NCBI GenBank assembly: GCA_001789205.1
Contig: MFYT01000087.1
Coordinates: 1-6,980 of the forward strand
Direction: 5' to 3'
Source of the DNA: Candidatus Raymondbacteria bacterium RIFOXYA2_FULL_49_16
Lineage (GTDB): Bacteria; Fibrobacterota; OXYB2-FULL-49-7; XYB2-FULL-49-35
DNA length: 6,980 nt
A model generated the notes under the pieces. It did no database searches. It was not told the origin of the DNA and saw only the letters and a list, made by a program, of their open reading frames with translations. Within the stretch, counting starts at the first letter, position 1, and each line of letters opens with the position of its first letter. Below are positions 2,742 to 6,943 of this stretch, in pieces. The position numbers and the translations under genes were made by a program.

Positions 2742-2776
2742 AAACAAAACGGCCCCGCCAAGTCCTGGCGGAGCCG
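2742..2776 (-). terminator. Intrinsic terminator ending the minus-strand RNA
   Basis: On the minus strand the stem arms are 2776-2766 and 2760-2750: 11 pairs with one G-U, extended by two A-T pairs, and a 5-nt loop. TTTTGTTT (2749-2742) follows immediately. This is a textbook GC-rich hairpin plus U tract. It lies downstream of the epimerase gene and the candidate small RNA, and upstream of lpxH, so it insulates lpxH from them. The plus strand has only a weak T tract, so it acts mainly in the minus direction. Confidence 0.85.
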
Positions 2777-2797
2777 TTCAAAGCTTAGGGTGCCCCT

Positions 2798-2833
2798 AAA
2801 AAAGCCTTGTTGCTAGCAAGCCTCACAAGAGGC
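2798..2833 (-). terminator. Possible internal terminator or attenuator
   Basis: On the minus strand, GCCT (2833-2830) plus TGT (2827-2825) can pair with ACAAGGC (2810-2804) around a 2-nt bulge, and TTTTTT (2803-2798) follows directly. A competing perfect 5-bp hairpin, GCCTC-TTGT-GAGGC (2833-2820), uses the same left arm, so the two folds exclude each other, as in attenuators. Part of the left arm being shared is visible; regulation is inference. It may simply be the first of two tandem terminators. Confidence 0.3.
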
Positions 2834-2858
2834 CCCTATTCTACTTTGGTAGATAATA

Positions 2859-2871
2859 GGATCACCTCCTT
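2859..2871 (-). promoter_or_regulatory. 13-nt perfect complement of the 16S rRNA 3' end
   Basis: The minus strand reads AAGGAGGTGATCC, the exact reverse complement of the canonical bacterial 16S terminus GGATCACCTCCTT. A 13-mer match by chance in a window this size is very unlikely. Eleven of its bases lie in the unpaired linker between the pseudoknot and the next hairpin. A ribosome-binding site this strong should precede a gene, yet no ATG, GTG or TTG occurs at a normal distance. The only triplet at the right spacing is ATT, opening a 14-codon frame. Confidence 0.6.
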
Positions 2872-2875
2872 CCAT

Positions 2876-2924
2876 CGGGGAAACGTGATACGCGCCGGGA
2901 ATTTCCCCGTAAAATTAGCGGCGC
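2876..2924 (-). other. Predicted H-type RNA pseudoknot
   Basis: In minus-strand order, GCGCCG (2924-2919) pairs with CGGCGC (2897-2892), and CGGGGAAA (2909-2902) pairs with TTTCCCCG (2883-2876). The stems of 6 and 8 perfect pairs interleave as S1a-S2a-S1b-S2b, with loops of 9, 4 and 8 nt. That is compatible with a classic H-type pseudoknot, or with two alternative hairpins. It ends 4 nt before the anti-16S element, so folding could control access to that site. Confidence 0.45.
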
Positions 2925-2935
2925 AGCAGACCGTA

Positions 2936-2964
2936 ATTATAATATACTATAAATTTCCTGAAAA
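2936..2964 (-). promoter_or_regulatory. Sigma-70-type promoter for the candidate small RNA
   Basis: On the minus strand, -35 TTTTCA (2964-2959, 4 of 6 matches) is followed by a 17-bp spacer and a perfect -10 TATAAT (2941-2936). Transcription would start near 2929-2930. The -35 lies inside the last codons of the epimerase gene, so this is a promoter embedded in a 3' end. Confidence 0.5.
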
Positions 2965-3864
2965 TGCCCATTCAACCGTATTGTAGATGGTATGGCGCGG
3001 TGAAAAACCGAGGTTGCGCGCCTTTGCGAGACTAATCTCAAACGAAAAGGCATCGGGTGTTGCAACGCCATGAATGGACGCGGGCTCTTTTTTTGTCATA
3101 TATTCGGCCAATTCCTGGTAATCAAACGCGTTTGGTCCTGCAATGTGGAAGATCTCTCCGTACGTGGACGCGTTCTTCAGCGCCCAAACAAAGGCAGCGG
3201 CAAGGTCGCGGGGATCAACCACATGGCGTTTCAGCGGCTTGCCGTGCATATCAAGGGGAACAACGTAGAAATTTTCGCCCGCATCCAGTTTTTTCCTTAG
3301 ATCATCGGACAGGTACCGCTTCCACCCGCCAAGCCGGGGATGGCACAACTGCGTTGCACGCATGCCTTCCATTATCCACGATCCACGCAAAACCGTTATG
3401 GGCATCCTGAATTTCCTCGCGTATTGGAGTGCCACGGTTTCCTCAAGAATTTTAGACAACCCATATTCGTCGTCCACAAAAAGATAGGGCGTTGTCTCGT
3501 CGAACAAGGCCGGATGCTCGTAATCGTAGATAGGGACCACGTTGTCGCCCGAGAGAAGGATGACCTGCGGCAAACGGTCAGATGCGCGCGCAGCCTCGAG
3601 CACATGGTAAAAACCGCCCACATTGACCTGTAGGAATTTTTCCTTGTTCCCTTTCACCGTGGCCAAATGACAGATGCAATCCACCCCTTCGCACGCCTTT
3701 TTAATCTCCGCTGGATTGGTCATATCGCCTGTCATCTGTTCAACGCCCGCTATGTGTATCGGCGTGGCATGCACCAGTACGCGGACCTGGTGCCTTTCCT
3801 GAACAAGCCGATTGACAAGTAATGGTCCAAATTTACCGGTTGCGCCCGTGACAAGTATGTTCAT
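2947..3864 (-). CDS. NAD(P)-dependent epimerase/dehydratase family protein (extended SDR)
   Basis: The 305 residues form an extended short-chain dehydrogenase/reductase. An N-terminal Rossmann glycine motif GATGKFG (residues 7-13) binds the dinucleotide, followed by GDMT (46-49) and CHLAT (65-69). The catalytic set is S105 in LLSGDNVV, and Y134 and K138 in YGLSK. RHVVDPRDLAAAF and FHIAGPNAF match conserved C-terminal blocks of sugar epimerases and related reductases. No transmembrane segment or signal peptide is apparent, so it is likely cytoplasmic. The substrate cannot be told from sequence; nucleotide sugars are typical of the family, but no sugar-pathway genes are nearby. An AAGGCGG Shine-Dalgarno sits a few nt before the ATG at 3864. 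The aldehyde dehydrogenase gene ends 204 bp upstream, so co-transcription is uncertain. Confidence 0.88.
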   Translation of the reverse strand: MNILVTGATGKFGPLLVNRLVQERHQVRVLVHATPIHIAGVEQMTGDMTNPAEIKKACEGVDCICHLATVKGNKEKFLQVNVGGFYHVLEAARASDRLPQVILLSGDNVVPIYDYEHPALFDETTPYLFVDDEYGLSKILEETVALQYARKFRMPITVLRGSWIMEGMRATQLCHPRLGGWKRYLSDDLRKKLDAGENFYVVPLDMHGKPLKRHVVDPRDLAAAFVWALKNASTYGEIFHIAGPNAFDYQELAEYMTKKEPASIHGVATPDAFSFEISLAKARNLGFSPRHTIYNTVEWAFSGNL

Positions 3865-5559: not shown

Positions 5560-5590
5560 CTAGTGCCATGACCATTTATTTTTTTCACTT
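5560..5590. repeat. Imperfect direct repeat, left copy
   Basis: This 31-bp sequence begins CTAGTGCCATGACCA and ends in CACTT. It matches 6913-6943 at 27 of 31 positions in the same orientation, with no gaps. The pair brackets the yjdF-like pseudogene and the 140-residue ORF. It may be a remnant of a repeat family or of a small mobile element; no transposase is present in the window. Confidence 0.6.
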
Positions 5591-5682: not shown

Positions 5683-6286
5683 ATGTCTCGCTCATCAGCG
5701 TTTTAACCATTCTGGTATGCTCGTTCATCTTCTGCCACAACCGCAATGTGTGGGTGCTTGAAGGCGCGCCCATTCTTGCGGGGCTGCCAATCCTTGTCGC
5801 GACCTATGGACGATTCCAGTTCACTAACCTGGTCTATTTCTGGATCATAGTACACTCGCTCATCCTTTCGCTTGGCGGCATCTACACCTGTGCGGAGTAC
5901 CCTTGGGCTTCTGGATGCAGGAGTGGTTCGGTTTTGCACGCAATCACTACGACCGGATAGGCCATTTTGCACAAGGCTTCATTCCAGCGCTCATTATACG
6001 CGAAGTCCTGATACGAACATCGCCCCTTCGCAGCGGCAAATGGCTGACCACAATCGTGATCTCCATGTGCCTTGCCATTAGTGCCGCATACGAGCTTTTT
6101 GAATTCGGCTATGCATACAATTCAGGCGGCAGTTCAAACGATTTTCTGGGTTCGCAGGGGGACATCTGGGATGCCCAATGGGACATGACATTCGCCCTCA
6201 TTGGAGCTACTGCCTCAATGCTGATTCTGCCACCTATCCATGACCGGTTCCTGAAAAAGAAAGGTATAATCGTCAGAGAGCAATAA
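5683..6286 (+). pseudogene. yjdF: YjdF/DUF2238-family inner-membrane protein gene, two frameshifts
   Basis: This is a multi-spanning membrane protein of unknown function. Three consecutive frames are needed to read it. The start frame from ATG 5683 gives MSRSSAF and then a stop in a TTTT run (5701-5704). The next frame carries TILVCSFIF, WVLEGAPILAGLPILVATY and VYFWIIVHSLILSLGGIYTC up to AEYP. The third frame, entered at about 5901, reads LGFWMQEW, then the family signature RNHYDRIGHFAQGF, KWLTTIVISMCLAISAAYELFEF, FLGSQGDIWDAQWDM and a last hydrophobic helix, ending at the TAA at 6284-6286. Adding one T at 5701-5704 and one C at 5901-5902 restores about 200 residues, the usual family size. 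GGAG lies directly against the ATG, too close to work well. Two homopolymer losses fit either genuine decay or sequencing error. This is not the riboswitch-linked Bacillus protein also named YjdF. Confidence 0.8.
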
Positions 6287-6912: not shown

Positions 6913-6943
6913 CTAGTGCCACGACCACTTAATTTTTACACTT
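6913..6943. repeat. Imperfect direct repeat, right copy
   Basis: The right-hand partner of 5560-5590 begins CTAGTGCCACGACCAC, is 27 of 31 identical, and has the same orientation. Positions 6882-6912 and 6944-6980 show nothing else I can name; the end of the window is AT-rich with T runs. Confidence 0.6.

Follow-up and report, generated by a model that had tools for sequence, protein, structure and literature searches.

A predicted small RNA gene that recurs in several bacterial phyla and is absent from Rfam lies on the minus strand of the window, the whole 6,980-nt stretch of DNA analysed here. Judged from sequence comparison, it probably encodes a stand-alone structured micro-mRNA of ~190 nt, composed of a 5′ hairpin (H1) with a pseudoknot, an extended Shine-Dalgarno (SD) sequence, an open reading frame (ORF) of ~14 codons, a downstream hairpin and a terminator (Table 1). 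An earlier note on this DNA had proposed a new small RNA gene with its own promoter and terminator. The gene is indeed undescribed, conserved and outside Rfam, but the RNA is probably not noncoding, since its ORF appears to be selected. Because comparative evidence places this short frame under selection, we prefer to call the RNA a small structured mRNA; it may possibly be a dual-function RNA.

Table 1. Predicted features of the RNA gene and their positions in the window
Feature	Position	Strand	Details
Promoter-like TTTTCA-N17-TATAAT	2964–2936	−	−35, 2964–2959; −10, 2941–2936; 10 of 12 consensus bases
Complete inferred RNA, ~190 nt	2742–2930	−	fold z = −4.2; relatives by models R1/R2/R3 in several phyla
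Hairpin H1	2892–2924	−	arms GCGCCG (2924–2919) and CGGCGC (2897–2892)
Pseudoknot	2876–2909	−	H1 loop CGGGGAAA (2909–2902) with UUUCCCCG (2883–2876), just 5′ of the SD
Extended SD AAGGAGGUGAUCC	2859–2871	−	complements free 3′ tail of own 16S rRNA
Short ORF ATT...TAG, IIYQSRIGASCEAC-stop	2857–2813	−	14 codons + stop; frame, spacing, stop and peptide conserved
Helix H2	2828–2869	−	GGAGG (2869–2865) with CCUCU (2832–2828); would hide the SD
Helix H3	2786–2838	−	UAGGGGCCUCU (2838–2828) with AGGGGCACCCUA (2797–2786); encloses stop codon
Intrinsic terminator	2742–2779	−	stem 2779–2747, 15 pairs, 9 G-C; then U tract TTTTGTTT

Locus, Promoter and Terminator

The promoter-like sequence that the earlier note had seen overlaps the last codons of a gene for an NAD-dependent epimerase (2947–3864, minus strand). 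It is the joint best match of its kind within the window, and from its position we infer that the RNA starts near 2929. Promoter-like matches are in modest excess across the window (12 observed versus 7.6 expected from shuffles), so that the promoter alone is little proof. A relative (L130, equivalent to G028) contains TTGACA-N18-TATAAT at the equivalent place. The GC-rich hairpin with a U tract, also pointed out before, ranks strongest among the 13 terminators detected in the window. Between promoter and terminator lies a compact RNA, placed on the minus strand as claimed, with a predicted fold energy of −82.4 kcal/mol versus −63.5 kcal/mol in shuffles; none of 200 shuffles was as stable. The Rfam search produced no family that reached its gathering score, in line with the lack of a match to known RNA classes reported before, and literature searches returned no description of the RNA.

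Predicted Pairing with the 16S rRNA Tail

The minus strand at 2871–2859 reads AAGGAGGTGATCC. The complement of this 13-mer occurs at two sites in the source genome (5.4 Mb in 112 contigs), namely the 3′ end of 16S rRNA and the window; outside rRNA, the 13-mer is unique to this locus. Given this complementarity, the RNA could pair with the single-stranded 16S tail of its own ribosomes, in 13 contiguous pairs that reach past the SD core toward the start codon. The predicted duplex comprises 15 bp, including one G-U pair, with an energy of −27.5 kcal/mol, compared to −11.6 kcal/mol for AAGGAGGU. Most family members retain the 13-nt complement. We rejected an antisense fragment or pseudogene of 16S rRNA as the source of this match, because the shared part is confined to the tail complement and flanking 16S sequence is absent. 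We also discarded further AAGGAGGTGATCC sites of the phylum (L014, L015, L018–L022 and L024); they do not carry the pseudoknot and terminator pattern and resemble coding sequence.

RNA Structure

Covariation was assessed on a 33-sequence MAFFT alignment that was fitted to no structure. In this alignment H1 varies two-sidedly at all seven aligned pairs (78% of cells paired), and the five core pairs of the pseudoknot are 97% paired, with a two-sided exchange between A-U and G-C at one pair. Total covariation exceeds that of 500 out of 500 shuffles, which are uncorrected for relatedness, and that of all slid controls. Conservation in relatives, covariation and the lack of a known Rfam family, which are among the checks suggested by the earlier note, therefore all speak for the RNA.

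Two further helices share the segment CCUCC in the later codons of the ORF. Pairing of this segment with GGAGG (H2) is possible in 99% of cells in the 33 sequences and is nearly invariant, which makes H2 plausible but unproven by covariation. H3 pairs the same region with a downstream strand and competes with H2. Compared with shuffled sequence, H3 reaches a z of −2.8 on average over 27 members, and L174 shows joint changes in the two arms of this helix. Predicted accessibility of the SD, a computed tendency, falls to ~1% when transcription has reached the CCUCC segment and is ~22% for the longer transcript. These data support the conservation of the predicted H1, pseudoknot and H3, and they support the reality of the RNA family.

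The Short ORF

The region was initially described as about 190 nt with no usable ORF. This statement does not hold: a putative ATT start codon (2857) sits 7 nt after GGAGG of the 13-nt SD and opens a frame that ends at TAG (2813). Such a frame is overlooked when ATG, GTG and TTG are the only starts allowed. For comparison we used 106 loci, filtered on RNA features (pseudoknot and GGAGGTG) among the matches listed. The frame 7 nt after GGAGG closes after 11–15 codons in 102 of them, whereas frames at offsets 5, 6 and 8 do so in 39, 3 and 47 loci. After dereplication at 70% identity the corresponding counts are 18 of 20 for the +7 frame and 4, 3 and 5 of 20 for the other offsets. At the start position, ATC (78 loci), ATT (18) and ATA (2) together account for 98 of the 106 loci, with ATG in five; TTG is found there in Nitrospinota and in the alphaproteobacterial member L191. 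Three loci (L127, L140 and L183) have ATT shifted 1 or 2 nt later and retain the peptide frame.

The peptide consensus is roughly [I/M/L]-[S/N]-S-x-S-I-x-G-A-S-G-x-x-C-stop, with a C-terminus that differs between lineages. In-frame stops are absent, compared to means of 4.6–17.3 in column-shuffled alignments, and substitutions are conservative, with substitution scores that beat column shuffles (P from 0 to 0.026). This test was limited to loci with GAS or AAS at codons 8–10, and the discovery scan that yielded most loci demanded GGRGCCTC in any frame; the G-A-S codons are therefore conditioned by the choice of loci. RNA pairing limits change at these codons as well, so that some of the conservation of the peptide may stem from structure. 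L174 retains G-A-S through the synonymous codons GGC GCT TCT, and serine 2 is encoded variously by AGT, TCT and TCA. In L166, L197 and L199 the SD or its extension has decayed, yet peptide and ATT persist (ISSSILKETSGEIC and ISSQLKGTSGEIR, each followed by a stop); they also persist where codons have diverged (ISSNKLIGTPGTGC-stop). The comparison supports coding selection on the short frame for its peptide, with G-A-S conservation partly shared with the RNA structure.

Several variants were seen alongside. The gammaproteobacterial loci L177 and L178 have an ATG start and shorter, different peptides (MSNGCIEVLTG and MSDGCIEVLTG, each before a stop), and contain neither the G-A-S motif nor the CCUCC partner. 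The Fibrobacterota genome G048 encodes related peptides in its two copies, L030 (ISSNKLIGTPGTGC-stop) and L166 (ISSSILKETSGEIC-stop), the second of which no longer has GAUCC as an extension of its SD. Apart from these variants, three alphaproteobacterial loci (L073, L105 and L192) have other small ATG ORFs directly after AAGGAGGTGATCCA (MSSEIIV..., MSVTMSRG... and MSNEIIW...), which may represent a separate class of small genes whose SD sequences match the full tail.

Family Distribution and Genomic Context

A nucleotide search of 100 genomes of the phylum returned two relatives, and a pattern search added a third. The covariance model built from four sequences recovered more Fibrobacterota members; as model calibration was shortened, E-values are rough. 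A pattern scan of one genome per species, covering ~85,000 species, gave at least 119 stretches. Among the matches listed, most come from marine Gammaproteobacteria, and the others from Calditrichota, KSB1, Bacteroidota/Rhodothermaceae, Lentisphaerae and Nitrospinota. Nine pattern matches were judged to be chance or unrelated (L052, L059, L069, L073, L083, L105, L113, L123 and L153). Later model searches contributed L191 and more members in Bacteroidota, Calditrichota and the order of genome G167. Altogether, the 5′ hairpin and the pseudoknot are shared by relatives from Fibrobacterota, Calditrichota, KSB1, Bacteroidota, Lentisphaerae, Nitrospinota, and Gamma- and Alphaproteobacteria. The loci are mostly metagenome-assembled, and many of those from Gammaproteobacteria are close to one another. 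At L130 and L137 the RNA is the same as in G028 and G076.

Prevalence is patchy. The gene was found in 8 of 167 Fibrobacterota genomes and in 10 of 40 genomes from the phylum of G168. The order of G167 had it in 4 of 244 genomes, and the phylum of G169, convincingly, in 3 of 247; searches of more than 40 genomes used strict filters, so that weak members may be missed. The gene is single-copy, with the exception of G048. Searches of plasmids, E. coli genomes and viral contigs gave no family match.

The genes on either side change from one lineage to another, and the one downstream is frequently convergent. Downstream genes in relatives code for a LysR regulator, an Lhr helicase, a TonB receptor, an alanine dehydrogenase and others. 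In the window, the neighbors are the genes for the epimerase, a calcineurin-like phosphoesterase, which we take to be LpxH-like, a prolyl-tRNA-synthetase-like protein and an aldehyde dehydrogenase. The lack of conserved neighbors between lineages suggests a stand-alone gene and argues against a cis-acting leader.

Possible Mechanism and Alternative Explanations

How might such a micro-mRNA work? We propose that 30S subunits would bind through the extended SD to a message whose predicted ORF usually starts at AUU, AUC or AUA, sometimes at AUG or UUG, and ends inside the downstream hairpin. The extended SD would compensate for the weak start codon and leave initiation open to the action of IF3. 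With their CCUCC, the G-A-S codons would either mask the SD by forming H2 or engage the downstream strand in H3, and access to the SD may be switched in this way. Since initiation can be slowed by an SD helix as long as 13 bp, and non-AUG codons are poor starts, output of the ORF may be very low. The product that matters would mainly be the peptide, which would be made in limited amounts and act in trans. More speculatively, and in our estimate rather doubtful, the family could serve as a sensor of translation initiation, in which output of the conserved 11–15-residue peptide reflects how free 30S subunits and IF3 stand, and the peptide signals this in trans. This idea builds on the full pairing with the 16S tail, the IF3-discriminated start codon and the two-state hairpin.

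The same features can be read without a role for the peptide. The RNA could be a ribosome-binding regulator that captures 30S subunits by full-tail pairing, as a decoy or sensor of free 30S and IF3, with a functionless peptide and an ORF that merely positions or releases the ribosome. Retention of the 13-nt complement across most members and the prevalence of start codons of the IF3-discriminated kind are consistent with this proposal. We nevertheless consider it unlikely, because the peptide is conserved through synonymous changes and because L166, L197 and L199 keep peptide and ATT despite a decayed extended SD. An ordinary noncoding RNA acting in trans, as the earlier note had proposed, would account for the strong structure and for the promoter-like and terminator sequences, and the ORF would then be a by-product of structural conservation. 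The frame, the stop position, the codon-level pattern of change and the survival of the ORF through 1-nt shifts, unexpected from structure alone, render this explanation improbable.

A cis-acting leader or attenuator of the phosphoesterase gene would fit the window itself, where this gene (1888–2631) lies on the same strand ~115 nt beyond the terminator, and the arrangement of SD, H2 and H3 resembles a leader switch. In relatives, however, a variety of genes follows the RNA, many of them on the other strand, and with no conserved gene in the same orientation we regard a leader as very improbable. A small structured mRNA, our preferred explanation, would be one of the smallest protein-coding genes with wide conservation that have been proposed. 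Gene finders are blind to an 11–15-codon gene with an AUU or AUC start, which would explain why neither protein annotation nor Rfam has picked up a structured gene shared across phyla. It would also offer a natural case for how far a full-length SD helix offsets a poor start codon, and for the action of IF3 on such messages.

Comparison with Known Systems

The closest kind of known system is the dual-function small RNA, of which SgrS/SgrT is one example. VcdRP of Vibrio cholerae is another (PMC8672173). Like these RNAs, the window RNA would be a small transcript with its own terminator and a short ORF; its promoter-like and terminator sequences and the changing neighbors agree with a stand-alone transcript, and coding selection agrees with a translated ORF. 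In contrast to them, the window family has 11–15 codons, a usually non-AUG start, a full-tail SD and a 5′ pseudoknot, and it crosses phyla. Extended SD pairing coupled to conserved non-canonical AUU or AUA starts has an experimental precedent in infC, cvfC1 and ccpN of Staphylococcus aureus (PMC13009471). The window RNA would share this coupling, with its predicted non-AUG start, but the S. aureus mRNAs encode proteins of at least 61 residues, whereas the window message totals ~190 nt and includes a pseudoknot and a possible internal switch.

The alphaproteobacterial RNA CC2171 (Rfam RF01867) shares with the window AAGGAGGUGAUCC, which aligns near the 5′ part of its Rfam model, a nearby GGAGCCUC/GGAGCCTC element and a terminator. 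It also has a short GTG-start ORF of 21–22 codons at similar spacing. Membership of the window RNA in CC2171 was rejected: the window scores 24.8 bits with the full model against a gathering score of 75, which no family member outside true CC2171 loci reaches. Reciprocally, true CC2171 loci score 15–18 bits with model R3 through positions ~39–101, the SD region alone, compared to 84.5 bits for the window and 12.9 bits for the 16S antisense. No matching H1 or pseudoknot was seen in CC2171, and its peptide is different. CC2171 may represent either an analogue or a distant relation; we do not claim that it belongs to the same family. With the same SD and a short ORF, CC2171, filed as noncoding, may be open to the same reading.

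Six further loci, from Caulobacterales or unplaced Proteobacteria, are true CC2171 (L075, L090, L092, L115, L125 and L144). At these loci the GTG ORF, which reads VSHCHQPRS... or a close variant of it, begins 7 nt past the GGAGG of the shared 13-nt SD. In L075, L125 and L144 this ORF lies ~1.1–1.4 kb from an alpha-tmRNA gene.

Other Features of the Window

A DUF2238 membrane protein (5748–6286) is split over two frames, with 5748–5960 matching profile positions 2–45 and 5903–6286 matching positions 45–140. The split is a frameshift that is either genuine or due to the assembly. This region is flanked by a 31-nt direct repeat (CTAGTGCCAYGACCAYTTA..., 5560–5590 and 6913–6943, 87% identical), which might point to a mobile or repeated element. 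A near-perfect 36-nt palindrome (106–141) lies downstream of the prolyl-tRNA-synthetase-like gene and is possibly a bidirectional terminator.
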